NCBI GenBank assembly: GCA_030625285.1
Contig: DAOURC010000005.1
Coordinates: 1 to 16,368, forward strand
Direction of reading: 5' to 3'
Source: Eubacteriales bacterium
Lineage (GTDB): Bacteria > Bacillota > Clostridia > Peptostreptococcales > Acidaminobacteraceae
DNA: 16,368 bases
How positions within the stretch are numbered: the first letter of the stretch is position 1; the number at the start of each line of letters is the position of its first letter. This document shows, in pieces, positions 4,439 through 12,234 of this stretch. The notes beneath the pieces are model-generated. The model searched no databases, was not told the DNA's origin, and saw only the letters and a list, made by a program, of their open reading frames with translations. Made by a program: the position numbers and the translations under genes.

Positions 4439-5287
4439 TCAGCGGTTACGCACTGAGTTTTGAAGTAAACTAATCATCCAGTCTTCAATTTCAGGTGTGC
4501 TGTTGATTACAAATTCTTGTCCTTTAGCAGCAGATTGGAAATAACCATCTTTCCAACTATTTGGAGTATGATAACTAATAGAAGTATTCTTGAATATTTC
4601 TGGTAGATTCCATTTTGACTTGCTTAAACCCTCTTTAGTAAGTTGTACATCATCATTATAATTAAAAGTCCCGAAGCCTGGCATAGAAGAATCAAATGTC
4701 AATGTCTCATTAGCAATATAGATATGATCCGTATCAGTTGCATTTGTACCTCGTACAATATGCGGATGATATAGCATCCAATCATCAAAAGTACTGGAAT
4801 TGATTTTTTTGATTTCTCCGATTTGCATATATCCATAGATTACATGCTTTCCTTTCCTATCGGTTTTACTATATTTATATTTCCCATCAATAAGTTCTAC
4901 TTGTCGAAACCAACCAAAGAATAAAAAGATATCATTAACAGATACATTTTGATTTGAGAGGTGACCATGCGCTGCGCCAGCTTGTCCAAAGAGAGCTCTC
5001 CAATCCTTTGACCTCTCACAAACAGTGCTATCGATATCAGGATCTAGATGACACCCTACTTCGTGAATCAATTTCTTTCCATCACCTTCAAATTTTATTT
5101 CACTACCTATCAATTCTGAGATTAATTCAGTAAAGTTTTTATTTTGACTTAAATATAAATCAGAATATTTAATCGGGGAATTTAAATCCGGTATCGGAAA
5201 TGACAACAATCTTCCATCAGGTAATATTGGACTTGGGTAACCACCATACCCAGAATCGAACCCTTTTCTACTAAGTATAATTTTCAT
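4439..5287 (-). CDS. Nmad3 family protein (nucleotide modification associated domain 3)
   Basis: This 282-residue protein begins MKIILSRKGFDSGYGGYPSP, and the IILSRKGFDS..GG.PSPILPDG N-terminus is the hallmark of Nmad3. That domain was first described from comparative genomics of DNA base hypermodification systems; its chemistry is unproven. Likely functional residues include HEVGCHLDPD (75-84), GQAGAAHGHL (101-110), DDW..YHPHIVRG (168-180) and DTDHIYI (185-191), a His/Asp-rich pattern compatible with a metal site. The reading frame is open up to 5365, but the ATG at 5287 is chosen because it has GAGGGG 10 bases upstream, follows the ndk stop by 22 bases, and starts exactly at the conserved N-terminus. 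It is the last gene of a five-gene run. No signal peptide or membrane segment was seen. Confidence 0.82.
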   Translation of the reverse strand: MKIILSRKGFDSGYGGYPSPILPDGRLLSFPIPDLNSPIKYSDLYLSQNKNFTELISELIGSEIKFEGDGKKLIHEVGCHLDPDIDSTVCERSKDWRALFGQAGAAHGHLSNQNVSVNDIFLFFGWFRQVELIDGKYKYSKTDRKGKHVIYGYMQIGEIKKINSSTFDDWMLYHPHIVRGTNATDTDHIYIANETLTFDSSMPGFGTFNYNDDVQLTKEGLSKSKWNLPEIFKNTSISYHTPNSWKDGYFQSAAKGQEFVINSTPEIEDWMISLLQNSVRNR

Positions 5288-5309
5288 TATGCAAATCCCC
5301 TCATATGCT

Positions 5310-5708
5310 TTATCTAGACCAGATATCCAATTCCCTCTTTGCATCGTCACTATTTGCCGAGCCATGCACGGCGTTTTGCTGAATATCAGTGCCGTATAAA
5401 TTCCTTACGGTACCTTTTTCAGCCTTCATCGAGTCTGTTACTCCGTTGATTTCTCTTACCTTATCAACGGCATCTTCACCCATAATTTCCATAACGACAA
5501 TTTTGCCACTAAGTATAAACTTCACTAAACTCGGGTAAAACGATTTGTCGGTATGCTCTTCATAATGTTTTTTTAAAAGCTCTTCATTCGCATACATCAT
5601 CTTCATATTTTCAATGCTCAATCCATTATTTTCATATATGGAGATAATGTCGCCAACATGCTTGGCCTTCACGGCATCTGGTTTAATAATCACTAAAGTT
5701 CTTTCCAT
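5310..5708 (-). CDS. ndk: Nucleoside diphosphate kinase
   Basis: This 132-residue enzyme transfers the gamma phosphate between nucleoside triphosphates and diphosphates through a phosphohistidine. TLVIIKPDAV marks the N-terminus, and NAVHGSANSDDA holds the catalytic histidine (H115 from the chosen start). R103 of the TVRNLYG segment (R102 from the chosen start) and the GTDIQQNAVH stretch match the nucleotide site. The length is slightly below the usual ~140-150. The ATG at 5708 shares one base with the upstream TGA stop (TGATG) and follows AGGAGTG; a TTG three bases earlier is less likely. Tight linkage between DUF1893 and Nmad3 genes is unusual for this housekeeping gene. Confidence 0.96.
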   Translation of the reverse strand: MERTLVIIKPDAVKAKHVGDIISIYENNGLSIENMKMMYANEELLKKHYEEHTDKSFYPSLVKFILSGKIVVMEIMGEDAVDKVREINGVTDSMKAEKGTVRNLYGTDIQQNAVHGSANSDDAKRELDIWSR

Positions 5709-6136
5709 CAAATCACTCCTGTGGATTTCAAAAAGTCTCTAACTTTTATTTCTAACTCCCTATAATCATCTGTAGTTATCGCCCTGGTTTCAACAGGACA
5801 CATCCCCGTTTGCTCGCGGTTTTTTATATACTCAGCCCATTTGTCATAAGAATAACCTATTTCATGACTTTGTATATATTTTACAGCATTTTCAGACATC
5901 ACCTGTCCATGAATAGATATAATACCACTTTCAACAGCAATCATAGCGGCAGCTTTTCCCACTATTCTATCTGCAAGAGAAGCGCCTCTTAAATCAATCT
6001 TAAGAATTTCCTTTGCCTCAAAAAGTGGAAATATCCCTCTTTCCTTACTAGTGTAAATAGCTTCGCCTTTTTTTACAACAATACATGCATACTCACCATC
6101 AGCGATCAAATTCTTTGCTAAATCAAAATCATCCAT
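5708..6136 (-). CDS. DUF1893 protein (deaminase-like fold, TM1506 type)
   Basis: This 142-residue protein resembles DUF1893, a family whose structural representative (Thermotoga TM1506) has a cytidine-deaminase-like fold but no proven activity. The core is GASLADRIVGKAAAMIAVESG (~51-71, split GASLADRIVG then KAAAMIAVESG), where a true deaminase would have H/C-A-E, and MCPVETRA (112-119), which stands where deaminases have PCxxC. Without the full zinc triad, catalysis of the usual type is doubtful; binding of a nucleotide or another small ligand is possible. The ATG follows GGAGTG at a good distance. It lies 35 bases after the radical SAM gene and shares one base with ndk, so co-transcription is likely. 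Confidence 0.85.
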   Translation of the reverse strand: MDDFDLAKNLIADGEYACIVVKKGEAIYTSKERGIFPLFEAKEILKIDLRGASLADRIVGKAAAMIAVESGIISIHGQVMSENAVKYIQSHEIGYSYDKWAEYIKNREQTGMCPVETRAITTDDYRELEIKVRDFLKSTGVI

Positions 6137-7174: not shown

Positions 7175-8590
7175 TTACAAATGCCTAGTAACTGTAAACC
7201 TTTCAATTGAATAATCTTCATCTTCTTTAATTCCGGCTTTATTCAGAGCAATTCTAAGTTGTTCTTCAACAGTATCAATACCTTTTAAATCAGGTAATAA
7301 TAATCCTCTTTTATATCCACTGCTTACAATGACACCATATGTCTTCGGATTTAATTCACTCTTGTCAGAAACAGAATCAGGTTCATTTAAAACATCGACA
7401 GTAATAATAAGATCATTCAATTCATAAACTTCTATAACCGGAAATCTCGGATCTTTTGTAGCAGCACTGATAGCATTTTCTACTATCTCCTCACCAAGAC
7501 AATTTCTTGTCGGTAAAAATGTACCAATACATCCTCTTAATCCCCCTGAATCCTTTATGGAAACAAATGCACCCTTTTTGATAGATTTCAAATCGTCTAT
7601 TTTATAATACTCAGATTCTTTGAAATTTAATCTCTCTTTGGATTCAACAAATAGATTGATGGTATTCCTAGCCAGTTTAACGAATGCGTCTTCTTTCTCC
7701 ATAGCTTCTTTCACATACTCTATCCTCGTTTTTTCAATATCCTTAATCAACGACTTATCGTCAGGTCTTAAATTTTCAAACGAAACCACTCCATATCCTA
7801 CTCCAAAAGGACCTTCATAACTTAATTTTTCAACATCATAATCATAAGAATCCAAAGTTCCCAGCAAAATATCTATAGATCTTTTTCCACATTCTCCAGC
7901 TTCTGCGCAAAATTCCGGATCCATTGCTATAATTTCAGTGTTTTTCTTATTAATCAACAGCTCAATTATTTTTTCATCAAAGGCCTTTCCCATAGGGTTG
8001 TAATCATACGGCCCAGAATCTTTTAGACGGTGAGATAAATCACCACTGGCGATTACAATCACATCTCTATCGATTTCTTCAACAGCGTCGGACAAAGCCA
8101 TTCCGACTTTATATAGATCTTGGTAACTCAGTAGTCCATAAGTAATAGAAATAAGGTTATATGATTTATATTCTTTATCGATGAAGTAAAGCGGAACTAA
8201 AGTACCGTGATCAAGTTTATACGTTGTTCCAAAATAATCGGCTGTTTTCTTATCGATCAAAGCACCGCTTAGTTTATATTTTTTCTTCATGATATTTGTA
8301 AACTCATCAATTAATTCAATATCGTTTTCTCTTTGGTACTCTAATGCATATTCACCAAAATTATTGAAATTCCCATCAAGATGTTTTTCATACATTATAG
8401 ATATTCCATCACTAAAGAGCGGTCCATGAGGTGAAATCACGATAACAGTTTGAGGTTTTAATGAAGCAATATTTTTTGATGCCTTTTCCATTGCTTCAAT
8501 AGTATTTATTACTTTCTTTTCTTCACCACGTCCAATTTCTTTTAATATCAAAGGTGGATGTGGCGTTAGATATGCAGCTAATATCGACAT
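7175..8590 (-). CDS. amrA: AmmeMemoRadiSam protein: LigB/MEMO-like domain fused to AMMECR1 domain
   Basis: This is a 471-residue two-domain protein. Residues ~1-275 form a MEMO/LigB (class III extradiol dioxygenase-like) domain with YLTPHPP (H11), SPHG (H55), LDHGT (H128), SGDLSH (D184, H187) and AGECGKRS (E233, C234). These positions are where the family keeps metal-binding or catalytic residues. Residues ~290-471 form the AMMECR1 domain with the invariant LRGCIG (351-356), KDPRFP (379-384) and the [10 protein letters not shown] segment. The two parts are separate genes in many genomes and separate proteins (MEMO1, AMMECR1) in humans; neither role is settled in bacteria. AGGAGGG precedes the ATG. 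It opens a five-gene run and is preceded by an intrinsic hairpin and a copy of a dispersed repeat. Confidence 0.92.
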
Positions 8591-8621
8591 AGTATCCCTC
8601 CTGAATTTAATATATACCCAA

Positions 8622-8652
8622 TAAAAAAGAAGAGTTCACATTTGAACTCTTC
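8622..8652 (-). terminator. Intrinsic terminator or attenuator upstream of the AmmeMemoRadiSam operon
   Basis: GAAGAGTTCA (8629-8638) and TGAACTCTTC (8643-8652) form a perfect 10-bp stem with a 4-base loop. On the - strand it is followed by TTTTTT (8623-8628). It lies only 32 bases upstream of the ATG at 8590, too close to leave a complete promoter between them. It is therefore either a terminator for transcripts arriving from the right or an attenuator in the operon's own leader. Confidence 0.85.
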
Positions 8653-8656
8653 CTTA

Positions 8657-8845
8657 TCTAAATTATTTTTATTATCTCTATGAAAATCGGGGTGGTTTTA
8701 GGACCATATTTTTTCCATTATTCAATCTCCATCGCGGAGACGACTATACATTGCCTTAATAAAAAAATATATACCATGGTACAACACCAACTACAAACCC
8801 ATTTTCCACCACAGAAATATGATAATTTTGAAGACTTATACCCCT
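8657..8845. repeat. Dispersed intergenic repeat, copy 1 (~189 bp)
   Basis: This aligns with 10127-10314 in the same orientation. The first 45 bases are identical; over the whole length I count 15 substitutions (13 transitions) and one single-base gap, about 92% identity by hand. It contains the short hairpin TCTCC-ATCGC-GGAGA (8726-8740) and the dyad TATACC-AT-GGTACA (8770-8783). The - strand carries a promoter-like pair, TTGTAG (8791-8796) and TATATA (8768-8773), 17 bases apart with TGG before the -10. The open frame on + at 8680-8865 is broken in copy 2, so it is not a gene. A CCTTATC direct repeat flanks the copy at 8652-8658 and 8843-8849. Confidence 0.93.
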
Positions 8846-8964
8846 TATCAAAAAACCTACCATAAAGATAACAAACAACATAATTATCGCAATATTAGTA
8901 TAAATCGAATTAATTATTTAACATTAAATCATGGACTGGATTTAATAATTATTTTCAATTACTT

Positions 8965-8983
8965 ATAAGGAATTTTTCCTTAT
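8965..8983. repeat. Hairpin-forming inverted repeat in the 8846-9035 gap
   Basis: ATAAGGAA and TTCCTTAT form an 8-bp perfect stem with a TTT loop. No T-run follows on either strand. Otherwise 8846-9004 is AT-rich and shows no gene. Confidence 0.5.
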
Positions 8984-8992
8984 TCTTAACAG

Positions 8993-9023
8993 AAAAAAAT
9001 AATATAGAATGTGCCCCATTCTA
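8993..9023 (-). terminator. Probable terminator of the membrane-anchored protein gene
   Basis: On the - strand, TAGAATG-GGGCA-CATTCTA (9005-9023) makes a 7-bp stem 12 bases after the stop of the gene ending at 9036. TTTTTTT (8993-8999) follows after five bases. The stem is AT-rich and the T-run is displaced, so it may be leaky. Confidence 0.55.
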
Positions 9024-9035
9024 ATTTTCAGTATT

Positions 9036-9875
9036 TCATGTAGGTACTATTGCATCTCTGTTAATAGTTTTATCTGGTACTGGTAAATCAAAAGGCTCCG
9101 GGTTAAAGTCAAATGAATATATATTAAACTCCCCATCAGTAAAGGAGTTAAAACTACCATCATCATTGCGGAGGATGTTTCCTGTTCCTAATAGAGATAA
9201 GTACGCAACGCTAGAATTTGAATAATCAATTTTGGCTATTTCTCCTTCTTCATCAATCCAAACTTCCAAGTAAAATGGTAGATAATTTGAAAATTCAATA
9301 TAGTTATCCACTTTATTGATTTGGCAGCTACGCATTTCTAAATTCTGAATAGCTTCATCACTTTTCTCAAAAAATTTATAAATTTGGTTATTGTCAACTT
9401 GTACTATTTCATAATAATCAGGATTCACAATTATATCCTTAATTTGTTCAACTTCTGGACCAGGTCGGCCAATTATCCCATGCCATATAGTCTTTAACCA
9501 AAGACCATCTGTATTTGCATATGAACTAACTTCATCGTTATAAACATAGTAACTTTCATAATTGTCTATTTCCTGACCTTCTACAGTTACATACAATGAT
9601 TCTACCATATTGCTTGATTTAAAATACAGGCTATTTACATCAGAATAATCAAACAACAATTCATCTAAAATCTCAACATATTCATTAGGATTCGTAGAAT
9701 AGATAACTTTCCGATATTTGGTATACCCTATATCTGTCGATTCCAATAAATTGTCAATACTATTATTGTATAGTTTTCTATCTTCACGTTGAGATAAGAT
9801 AAAAACGAATAGAATAATAAGCAGAATTCCAAAGAAAATAATATAAACTTTACATTTCTTATTTGTACTTGCCAT
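9036..9875 (-). CDS. Membrane-anchored extracytoplasmic protein, function unknown
   Basis: This 279-residue protein has a lysine-rich start, one hydrophobic segment (YIIFFGILLIILFVFIL, ~11-27) and a long polar remainder, so it is probably anchored by an uncleaved N-terminal helix and faces outward. The only cysteine near the anchor (C8) lies before the hydrophobic segment, so this is not a lipoprotein. The C-terminal half alternates short beta strands (YYEIVQVDNNQIYKFFE, then EFSNYLPFYLEVWIDEEGEI), a pattern reminiscent of the LolA/LppX lipid-binding fold; this is a guess from pattern, not an assignment. I do not recognise the family. An AGGAGG site sits four bases before the ATG. It is the only gene between the two repeat copies and has its own promoter candidates and terminator. 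Confidence 0.75.
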   Translation of the reverse strand: MASTNKKCKVYIIFFGILLIILFVFILSQREDRKLYNNSIDNLLESTDIGYTKYRKVIYSTNPNEYVEILDELLFDYSDVNSLYFKSSNMVESLYVTVEGQEIDNYESYYVYNDEVSSYANTDGLWLKTIWHGIIGRPGPEVEQIKDIIVNPDYYEIVQVDNNQIYKFFEKSDEAIQNLEMRSCQINKVDNYIEFSNYLPFYLEVWIDEEGEIAKIDYSNSSVAYLSLLGTGNILRNDDGSFNSFTDGEFNIYSFDFNPEPFDLPVPDKTINRDAIVPT

Positions 9876-9949
9876 CTTTCCTCCTTTAAAAATTTTTTAT
9901 GAGTGGACTTTTTAGTTAGTTTATTTTTTAGTAACACATTACAGAATAT

Positions 9950-9979
9950 ATGCTAATTCTCAATCTGATTTATTGTCAA
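9950..9979 (-). promoter_or_regulatory. Weak promoter candidate, proximal to the 9875 start
   Basis: On the - strand a perfect TTGACA (9974-9979) is followed after 18 bases by TAGCAT (9950-9955), a poor -10 match. It lies in tandem with the stronger pair at 10000-10026. Confidence 0.3.
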
Positions 9980-9999
9980 GATTAATGCTGCCTATACTA

Positions 10000-10026
10000 A
10001 TTATAGAATGTTTACTATTATGTCAA
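10000..10026 (-). promoter_or_regulatory. Promoter candidate for the membrane-anchored protein gene
   Basis: On the - strand TTGACA (10021-10026) and TATAAT (10000-10005) are both perfect consensus hexamers, but the spacer is only 15 bases. Short spacers reduce basal activity and are often used where an activator realigns the boxes. The leader to the ATG would be about 115 bases. Confidence 0.45.
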
Positions 10027-10126
10027 ACTATTGTAATAATCCTTAATATTTAATTAAGATTTGTATTTGCTAAAATCACGATATCTAACTCCAATACCAC
10101 TTTCCTATAATCCATATTATTCTTAA

Positions 10127-10314
10127 TCTAAATTATTTTTATTATCTCTATGAAAATCGGGGTGGTTTTAGATTCATATTTTTCTATTATTTAATCTCCA
10201 TCGCGGGGACGACTATACATTGCCTTAATAAAAAAATATATACCACGGTATAACATCAACTGCAAACCCATCTTCCACTGCAGAAATATGAGAATTCTGA
10301 AGACTTATACCCCT
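10127..10314. repeat. Dispersed intergenic repeat, copy 2 (~188 bp)
   Basis: This is the second copy of the element at 8657-8845, same orientation, start-to-start distance 1470 bases. The shared ends are TCTAAATT on the left and ACTTATACCCCT on the right; flanking sequences then diverge. The hairpin TCTCC-ATCGC-GGGGA (10195-10209) keeps pairing by a G-T pair if read on the + strand. The dyad TATACC-AC-GGTATA (10239-10252) is perfect here. The - strand promoter-like pair is kept as TTGCAG (10260-10265) and TATATA (10237-10242) with the same 17-base spacing and TGG. It stands upstream of the membrane-anchored protein gene, as copy 1 stands upstream of the AmmeMemoRadiSam genes. Confidence 0.93.
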
Positions 10315-10346
10315 CAATACAGACTATTTACAGATTCTTTAGTTAT

Positions 10347-10385
10347 AAAAATATTGCTATTGAGCTTCACACTGTTACAGGCTCA
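10347..10385 (-). terminator. Weak terminator-like hairpin after the small membrane protein gene
   Basis: On the - strand TGAGC and GCTCA (10381-10385 and 10361-10365) enclose a smaller CTG/CAG pairing, and an ATTTTTAT run lies about eight bases further. The stem is short. The rest of 10315-10412 shows nothing further. Confidence 0.3.
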
Positions 10386-10412
10386 GACCTTTTCAAATCC
10401 ACTTTAATGCAA

Positions 10413-10862
10413 TCAATCTATATCTTCTAAGACGATTAGAAACAAATCATCCATGTGTTTTGTATAGACGACAATGCTTTTATCCTTTCTCTCAAGGTTA
10501 GCGATAAAGAGAGACAAAAGACTAGCCGACTTCTTATTCAGATTCACAAGAATATTCATCGTATCCTTGCCATAAGAATCTCTTCGAATAAATATGCTCC
10601 GAAGACTAAACTCTTGATATTCCATAAGAAGATTGTTCAAATCACGATTTTCGAAAGCAAAACGTTTATCGTAATCATTCCGCACTCTTATAACAATTTC
10701 GTCCGCCGCACTCTCGTTGATTTTCATATTATTGAACATGCTCGTTATTTGGATAATGTGTTTCCCGCTATCAGTTGAGTAGTATTCAACTGATTTCCAT
10801 TGCAAAAAAACAATCAAAAGAACAACAAAAAAGAATAATATTGCTTTATAATATCTTTTCAT
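10413..10862 (-). CDS. Small membrane-anchored protein, function unknown
   Basis: This 149-residue protein has a basic start (MKRYYK), one hydrophobic helix (~7-21, AILFFFVVLLIVFLQ) and a polar domain of about 125 residues, predicted to be outside the membrane. It has no cysteine, metal motif or catalytic signature I recognise. The polar part mixes charged and aliphatic residues in a way consistent with a small alpha/beta domain ending in the strand-like FLIVLED. Its ribosome site is only a modest AGGAT about eight bases before the ATG. It lies 114 bases downstream of the LytTR regulator gene on the same strand, with no clear terminator between them, so it may be read with the regulator or be one of its targets. 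Confidence 0.65.
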   Translation of the reverse strand: MKRYYKAILFFFVVLLIVFLQWKSVEYYSTDSGKHIIQITSMFNNMKINESAADEIVIRVRNDYDKRFAFENRDLNNLLMEYQEFSLRSIFIRRDSYGKDTMNILVNLNKKSASLLSLFIANLERKDKSIVVYTKHMDDLFLIVLEDID

Positions 10863-10976
10863 AATCTTATATCCTATCCCAATAATAAATATTTTAAATG
10901 TAATAACTTACCGTGGCCACAAATAAACTTTACCATTTTTTAAGAGAAATACAATTGCATATGCACGAACGACATT

Positions 10977-11717
10977 CTAAATGCCATCAACGACATTTTT
11001 ATACTCTGAATTCAAAGTTTTTAATACCTCGTCTTTGTATTTACTCCCCAATAAAATATGATCTTCTATTCCATTAAAGCTGATATTTCCATTTTTCAGA
11101 TCTACGTTCTTCACATATTTTTTGTTTATGATGCAACTCCTATGGCATTGAACAAAATCATCCGATAATTCGTCTTGTATATTTTTTAGTGTTTGATGAC
11201 AGCTTATCCTTTCCATTTTAGTTACAATCATCACTTTTCTCAGGCTCGCCTCAATGTAGATGACATCACTTTGATTGAGAAGAATATAAAATCCCTTCAT
11301 TTTGATTCTCAGGAATTTCTCTTTCTCTTCTACATCTTCATTTTTTATGCCGTACTTGATGATGGTTTGAAGAGCCTTTCTAACTTGATCTTCTGTATAC
11401 GGTTTTTTTATATAATCATAGCAATGAATCTCCCTGAACGACAACAACTCTTTGCTCCAATTGGATGTACTGAATAAAATCGGTGTTATCTTATATCGAT
11501 CCATCTCCCTCAATTGTTTTGCCAAATCAAATCCACTGTAATCTTTCAAATGAATATCAATCACAAAAATATCTATGCTATACTCCATCGATATCGTCAC
11601 TGCCTCTGCAGCATATCCCGTCGTAAAGACATTTATTGAATCATCAATGGAGTTGACGATGCCTTTAAGCCATGAGGCAATTACCACTTCATCTTCAATA
11701 ATCAATATGTTTTTCAT
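10977..11717 (-). CDS. LytTR-family response regulator (orphan)
   Basis: This 246-residue two-component regulator has a REC domain (~1-122) with acidic pocket E8/D9, phospho-acceptor D54 (VIDIHL), switch T84 (FSTS) and K105 before P106 (KKPY). A LytTR DNA-binding domain (~138-242) shows SDVIYIEASLRKVMI, the HQTLKNIQDEL helix, and FVQCHRSCIINKKYV, the family's standard core. Such proteins (AgrA, ComE, LytR types) control peptide pheromone, wall or bacteriocin genes and usually pair with a HPK10-type kinase, but no kinase gene is in the window. AAGGT precedes the ATG. A promoter candidate lies between the rpsI terminator and this gene, so it is its own transcription unit. Confidence 0.92.
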   Translation of the reverse strand: MKNILIIEDEVVIASWLKGIVNSIDDSINVFTTGYAAEAVTISMEYSIDIFVIDIHLKDYSGFDLAKQLREMDRYKITPILFSTSNWSKELLSFREIHCYDYIKKPYTEDQVRKALQTIIKYGIKNEDVEEKEKFLRIKMKGFYILLNQSDVIYIEASLRKVMIVTKMERISCHQTLKNIQDELSDDFVQCHRSCIINKKYVKNVDLKNGNISFNGIEDHILLGSKYKDEVLKTLNSEYKNVVDGI

Positions 11718-11747
11718 GTTATTACCTTTTTCTCCCTTTGCATCTTT

Positions 11748-11776
11748 ATATTACCACTATCTCGATTTTTTCGCAA
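11748..11776 (-). promoter_or_regulatory. Candidate promoter for the LytTR regulator
   Basis: On the - strand TTGCGA (11771-11776) and TAATAT (11748-11753) are 17 bases apart, and the -10 is preceded by TGG, an extended -10 element. The -35 abuts the T-run of the rpsI terminator. The leader would be about 24-30 bases. Confidence 0.5.
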
Positions 11777-11804
11777 ATAAAAAAGAGTCCAAAATTGAAC
11801 TCTT
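11775..11804 (-). terminator. Intrinsic terminator of rplM-rpsI
   Basis: On the - strand AAGAGTTC-AATTTT-GGACTCTT forms an 8-bp stem with one G-T pair (11783-11804), followed by TTTTATT. It lies 20 bases after the rpsI stop. Confidence 0.88.
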
Positions 11805-11824
11805 CTTTGATATCCATAGATAAA

Positions 11825-12217
11825 TTATCTCTTTGAAAATTGTGGAGATTTTCTTGCTTTTTTAAGACCGTATTTCTTTCTTTCTTTCATTCTTGGATCT
11901 CTTGTTAAGAAACCAGCTTGCTTAAGAGCAGGTCTGTTCTCTGCATCAACTAATAATAATGCTCTTGAGATACCATGTCTTATTGCACCAGCTTGACCAG
12001 TGAATCCACCACCGTTCACTCTAACAATAACATCAAACTTAGAAAGTGTATCTGTTAAAATAAGAGGTCTTTTAACTTCATTTCTTAAAATTTCATAATC
12101 AAGATATTCACTAATATCTTGCCCATTTATCGTAACGTTTCCACTACCTGGAACCAATCTAACTCTCGCAATTGATTTTTTTCTTCTTCCCGTACCTTGA
12201 TATTGCTTAGTAGCCAT
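11825..12217 (-). CDS. rpsI: 30S ribosomal protein S9
   Basis: This 130-residue small-subunit protein has a C-terminal tail that reaches the P-site t[17 protein letters not shown] marks the N-terminus, [20 protein letters not shown] the core, and the tail ends in the invariant SKR (KSPQFSKR). The ATG at 12217 is chosen: AGGAGG lies seven bases upstream and [12 protein letters not shown] is the standard N-terminus; a TTG one codon earlier is also in frame. It follows rplM by 17 bases and is closed by a terminator. Confidence 0.98.
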
Positions 12218-12234
12218 CAAATATCCTCCTTTGC

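Follow-up and report, generated by a model that had tools for sequence, protein, structure and literature searches.

Decayed attachment sites as the probable origin of a direct repeat behind rpsI in a bacterium of the Acidaminobacteraceae

What is an intergenic repeat of about 189 bp that is found in two direct copies around a single gene, and how did it come to be there? The question is raised by a locus in the window, the whole stretch of 16,368 nucleotides analysed here (contig DAOURC010000005.1 of assembly GCA_030625285.1). The features of the locus are collected in Table 1.

Table 1. Features of the locus in window coordinates
Feature	Position	Strand	Remarks
LigB/AMMECR1-domain gene	7175..8590	-	directly after rpsI in relatives
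Terminator T2	8626..8655	-	directly after core 1; aligned with the terminator behind rpsI in G003
Region between intact rpsI and native AMMECR1 side	8657..11824	-	
Repeat copy 1	8657..8845	read on -	putative attR-like junction: arm of ~141 nt and rpsI-like core of ~45 nt
Core of copy 1	8657..8701	-	rpsI-like 3' end and about 14 nt downstream
Gene B	9036..9875	-	orphan 279-aa protein between the repeats; N-terminal hydrophobic stretch (by eye)
Repeat copy 2	10127..10314	read on -	arm of ~141 nt and identical 45-nt core; candidate internal attachment-site copy
Core of copy 2	10127..10171	-	identical to the core of copy 1
Gene A	10413..10862	-	orphan 149-aa protein; N-terminal hydrophobic stretch (by eye)
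LytTR response regulator	10977..11717	-	Response_reg and LytTR (Pfam)
Hairpin T1	11776..11808	-	directly after intact rpsI
3' end of intact rpsI, third copy of the core	11824..11852	-	83% over 29 nt (window self-comparison)
rpsI, ribosomal protein S9 (PF00380), intact	11825..12220	-	

The original prediction described two copies with about 92% identity, sharp ends and 45 identical bases, and this description is confirmed by blastn and by alignment. The two copies, both on the plus strand, are 91.5% identical over 189 positions (E 1.8e-74). The reported 13 transitions among 15 substitutions are also found; with 2 transversions and 1 indel, the total comes to 16 differences in 189 alignment columns. 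None of these falls in the first 45 bases, as against 16 in the remaining 144 columns (Fisher p 0.014, a modest value), and the arms of the two copies are 91% identical. Because the surrounding genes are on the minus strand, the repeat is read on that strand here, and the 45 identical bases form its 3' end. A separate 17-nt direct repeat with one mismatch, possibly due to chance, can be seen at 9623-9639 and 10316-10332; its second copy begins 2 nt past the end of repeat copy 2.

Repeats of this kind may be MITE-like elements, mobile regulatory cassettes or structured RNAs, all of which were proposed in the original prediction. The sharp ends and the intergenic position of the copies would suit any of them. 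However, no further copy is found in the genome's own assembly (1.06 Mb, 63% complete) or in 40 other genomes of the family. No inverted pair of at least 20 nt joins the ends of a copy as MITE-type terminal inverted repeats would, and inspection by eye covered shorter ones. The repeat has no match in phages, and its one match in plasmids (33 nt, E 0.5) is judged to be chance. Scanning viral sequences with the letters of the core and of the arm gives 0 and 0 matches. A pattern scan of genome contigs gives a single match (L032, 22 nt), which lies at the start of a 782-aa open reading frame in another organism and is also judged to be chance.

The case for a structured RNA fares little better. 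No Rfam family matches at its gathering score, the only matches being below threshold with E up to 5, and no strong fold is predicted. Compared with shuffled sequences, the plus strand of copy 2 folds somewhat more stably (z -2.2), and the other three strands are unremarkable (z -1.1 for the plus strand of copy 1, -0.1 for the minus strand of each copy). A promoter-like pair had been thought to be kept in both copies, but the scan lists no pair common to both; positions 8550-11900 hold 18 promoter pairs against a shuffle mean of 21.9, so that such pairs are no commoner than chance. The statement that the reading frame is broken is true of copy 2, which has a frameshift and stops, but not of copy 1, which is open on the plus strand from an ATG at 8680. 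A coding repeat was considered and set aside: the 15 substitutions are spread evenly over the codon positions (6/5/4), with no sign of coding selection.

What the earlier reading missed is that the 45 identical bases resemble the 3' end of rpsI and that copy 1 lies where relatives have their rpsI end. On the same strand, three copies of the core can be found (at 8671, 10141 and 11824), the last being the rpsI end itself, which is only 83% like the other two. Translated in the S9 frame, the core of the repeat reads KPPRFS*R*, compared with KSPQFSKR* at the end of S9. Cores 1 and 2 share the same decay, including the stop codon in this frame.

The significance of the resemblance can be judged from 500 dinucleotide shuffles per comparison. 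When the final 48 nt of each copy (minus strand) are compared, none of the shuffles reaches the score obtained against rpsI from the same genome or from G001, a genome of the same genus. Against rpsI from G003, of the same family, the score is reached by none (copy 1) and by one (copy 2). Against the more distant G017 the 48 nt do not rise above the shuffles, of which 181 and 233 in 500 score as high. Copy 1 taken whole outscores all 500 shuffles against the own, G001 and G003 genes, and copy 2 taken whole matches weakly, its scores being reached by 35, 1 and 5 of 500. When 61 genomes are searched blindly with copy 2, some match at E up to 1 appears in 58 of them, mostly of 17-47 nt. The best match outside the own genome (G049:C2:17602-17628, E 1.7e-4) spans the rpsI stop of that genome. 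Both copies thus carry an rpsI-like core, and the 45 identical nucleotides stop about where the similarity to rpsI stops.

The remainder of the repeat, about 141 nt, has no match to rpsI (97 to 474 of 500 shuffles reach the score), nor does this arm have any relative among 204 loci beyond matches of 19-32 nt. Residues that look like S9 (GIS, KYGLK) had suggested that all 189 bp derive from a decayed part of rpsI; this is not upheld, the 141-nt part being no better than shuffles. An additional stretch in the alignment of copy 1 with G003 requires an 11-nt gap, and as an rpsI remnant it is undecided at best. The repeat is a composite of an rpsI-like core and an arm without a convincing match elsewhere. 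On the results for copies, folding, Rfam and promoters given above, and with a quarter of the repeat resembling rpsI, a regulatory cassette, MITE or structured RNA is very improbable.

How the core came to be in this place can be approached by comparison with relatives. Uninserted sites, which the original prediction proposed to look for, are present in G001 and G003, where rpsI lies next to the AMMECR1 gene. The gap between the two genes is 211 bp in G001 and 82 bp in G003, as against 3,235 bp in the window, where the interval contains the LytTR regulator, two orphan genes and both repeats. The genes of the region are absent from the corresponding place in G001 and G003; the T1 part is present in G001. 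Among 44 stretches examined (38 from the family, window included, and 6 from the order), the two genes lie within 500 bp of each other in 15 and further apart in 9, the window among these. The other 20 show no AMMECR1 gene, several because the contig ends. As the stretches were hand-picked, some of them because an AMMECR1 gene had already been seen nearby, 15/44 is not a rate.

Window positions 8594-8699, which comprise core 1, a spacer, terminator T2 and the start region of the AMMECR1 gene, align in one piece with the junction from rpsI to AMMECR1 in G003 (78.5% over 107 nt, E 9.6e-18). Core 1 therefore occupies the former place of the rpsI end, and the junction at copy 1 looks native. G003 is matched by the intact rpsI end with T1 as well (77% over 57 nt, E 2.4e-6). 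Across the 56-nt stretch that runs from core to terminator, G003 shares 41 positions with copy 1 and 45 with the intact rpsI end. That the intact end is the closer of the two is expected if selection acts on it alone. The native placement assigned to copy 1 in this comparison is based on the terminator and the flank. Copy 2 is without the terminator that comes after copy 1.

T1 and T2 are related (82% over 33 nt), and of the two only T2 is listed by the terminator scan. G001 retains both, with no core detected between them, which suggests that the insertion predates the split from the window's lineage and was later deleted in G001. Base composition does not clearly distinguish the region, its GC content being 0.24-0.35 in steps of 400 bases and that of the flanks 0.31-0.35.

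Another gene of the window deserves mention. The gene at 4439-5365 has an Nmad3 domain (PF18754), and nothing like it lies between the corresponding neighbours in G001. Its listed frame overlaps the gene at 5310-5711, which we take by eye to be a nucleoside diphosphate kinase.

Because assemblers err at repeats, a misjoin might in principle have produced the second copy, and the assembly is metagenome-like, in 201 contigs and 63% complete. Such an artefact would hardly leave 16 differences, which make the copies distinct sequences, each with its own flanks, and the gene order on both sides agrees with that of relatives. It is scarcely to be expected here.

The genes within the region reveal little of its origin. 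Neither gene A nor gene B belongs to a Pfam family. Among 5.8 billion proteins each falls only into its own cluster, in a search that needs shared 5-residue words, and gene B has no relative in 40 other genomes. Relatives of the LytTR regulator are found in 46 of 61 genomes, own included, at E 1e-8, and have no bearing on the repeat. Neither an integrase nor a transfer gene is found in 8657-11824 among the open reading frames of the region and the Pfam matches of its three genes. The own genome, which is incomplete, has only two Phage_integrase matches, both on other contigs.

Evidence that integrases make use of the rpsI end can be sought elsewhere. IMG/VR was scanned with two versions of an rpsI-end motif, which gave 14 loci. 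In 13 of these the motif is preceded by S9 residues; the exception, L198, was rejected as a chance match. An integrase-like open reading frame follows on the opposite strand, 86-777 nt after the rpsI stop, in 11 of the 14 loci, and is lacking after the stop in L193, L198 and L203. All ten such frames submitted to Pfam pass the cut-off of PF00589 (Phage_integrase); the eleventh, from L200, was left out of this test.

In three of the loci (L195, L202 and L203), S9 is reduced to roughly its last 20 residues and is preceded by other DNA, a composite arrangement like that seen in the window. L202 and L203 are nearly identical there (97% over 772 nt) and are counted as one case. In L195 (4013-4033) and L202 (8312-8332) the partial S9 end comes after DNA that is not rpsI and has an integrase behind it; these may be tandem rpsI integrations.

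A profile of the 11 integrases was applied to 114 stretches from about 91 genomes, which often extend only about 1 kb downstream. It finds matches near rpsI in two genomes of the same family, G061 (at 0.7 kb) and G006 (1.8 kb), and also in G050, G100 and G102. The integrase near rpsI in G102 (L082) is split over the frames 2-592 and 571-891 and is probably a decayed gene.

Assembly breaks point the same way. The downstream contig end was covered for all but two (G063 and G077) of 115 rpsI contigs, and at least 6 of the 115 break within 26 nt of the stop (G004, G011, G015, G020, G031 and G084), those of G004 and G011 at the same codon. The next nearest ends lie at about 138, 139, 186 and 397 nt (G115, G068, G069 and G058). 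Breaks at the stop are expected where the sequence behind rpsI varies in a population, and hint at such variation, with other causes possible. Counting against such a use, the 21-nt rpsI-end motif does not occur twice as an exact match in any of the order's 297 genomes (own included), of which 169 have it once, and a displaced rpsI end was sought in G006, G061 and G013 and not found. The integrases near rpsI in G061 and G006 indicate that this family, too, makes use of rpsI as a hot spot, as has been described for streptococci, enterococci and macrococci.

The repeats are probably decayed attachment sites, left by integrase-less elements that accreted in tandem at rpsI. In an ancestor, an element with a tyrosine integrase would have entered rpsI at its 3' end, and the element's own copy of the gene end would have left S9 intact. 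The old rpsI end, together with its terminator, would have been displaced to the far side and have decayed there, and would now be copy 1, a junction of the attR type. Copy 2, with a second core and the same arm, would be the boundary to another element. From rpsI, the layout would then consist of element 1 (the LytTR regulator, gene A, arm and core 2) and element 2 (gene B, arm and core 1), followed by T2 and the AMMECR1 gene. Both elements would have lost their integrase, or never had one, and would be CIME-like relics. Such an integrase-mediated origin, with two elements and this order of events, is what we infer.

Identical cores with diverged arms are what would be given by tandem elements that share an end and an attachment core. 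Counting against tandem elements, the two proposed elements do not resemble each other at their left ends. The decay shared by both cores suggests that copying took place after the decay, and not two fresh insertions.

For these reasons, and because the arm has no relatives and the region no integrase, a different history is kept as a rival. It could have begun with one insertion, or with the rpsI end and its terminator being duplicated locally, and the decayed junction would later have been duplicated in the ordinary way. Either slippage or the homologous (RecA-type) insertion of a circle would have placed gene B between the copies, with no second site-specific insertion. The relatedness of T1 and T2 would also fit, since a duplication would then have exceeded the core. 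However, such a duplication would be expected to diverge evenly, whereas 0/45 positions differ in the core and 16/144 in the arm (at the modest p given above), and the terminator behind copy 1 is absent from copy 2. We regard this history as possible but rather unlikely.

Decayed attachment sites of tandem elements remain the preferred reading, and the connection of the repeats with mobile DNA, already seen in the original prediction, fits the evidence. So does its proposal that recombination between the repeats could delete or swap gene B; either segment might still be lost by recombination between the cores or the arms. A further idea goes beyond relics. The segments may be minimal non-autonomous rpsI cassettes, each made up of one or two small genes, a fixed 141-nt arm and the core, which stack in the manner of integron cassettes and depend for their movement on rpsI-specific integrases supplied in trans by resident phages or islands. 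Were this improbable idea true, genes A and B, both orphans, would belong to the cargo of a cassette pool of this kind.

An anonymous intergenic repeat can in this way be explained as the likely trace of a site-specific insertion into a gene for a ribosomal protein. Before an intergenic repeat is put forward as a new element or RNA, it is best checked against the 3' ends of the housekeeping genes next to it.

Several known systems can be compared with the locus. In Macrococcus caseolyticus, McRImecD islands of 16-18 kb with an integrase are located at the 3' end of rpsI. They have extended imperfect repeats of 160-163 bp with a 61-bp core shared with the rpsI end, and McRImecD-1 excises (PMC5341023). 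The locus resembles them in the proposed insertion at the 3' end of rpsI and in one repeat that appears to be the displaced rpsI end; unlike them, it has segments of only about 1.5-1.7 kb, which lack an integrase, and a core that has decayed (PMC5341023). The esp island of Enterococcus faecium is bounded by an imperfect 54-bp direct repeat, of which the left one is the 3' end of rpsI, and rpsI is termed a hot spot in that study (PMC2858755). That island is large and transferable, whereas the proposed elements of the window are small and without transfer genes (PMC2858755). In streptococci, IMESag-rpsI (9,496 bp) and ICEs target the 3' end of rpsI with a tyrosine integrase (PMC5090054, PMC4701971). 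They share the target site proposed for the locus, but are larger, and mobilizable or conjugative (PMC5090054, PMC4701971).

CIMEs lack genes for integration and transfer but retain their att sites, and they can stack in tandem at the end of one target gene (PMC5704250). Like them, the region behind rpsI has no integrase and has candidate att sites in tandem; unlike the CIMEs described in that account, it has att sites that have suffered erosion, and the search for a parent element carrying this arm gave none (PMC5704250). The lack of an own integrase in 8657-11824 sets the locus apart from ICEs and IMEs. Intact rpsI lies at one end and what looks like a displaced rpsI end at the other, and the proposed element or elements have direct repeats of the target core as their boundaries. 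Judged by its DNA, the locus shows the tested features of a CIME-like relic at rpsI, with recombination between att sites putative. Its layout appears similar to that of the rpsI islands in the published accounts (PMC5341023, PMC2858755), and it may best be seen as a decayed further case of a known type of integration scar, small and eroded.
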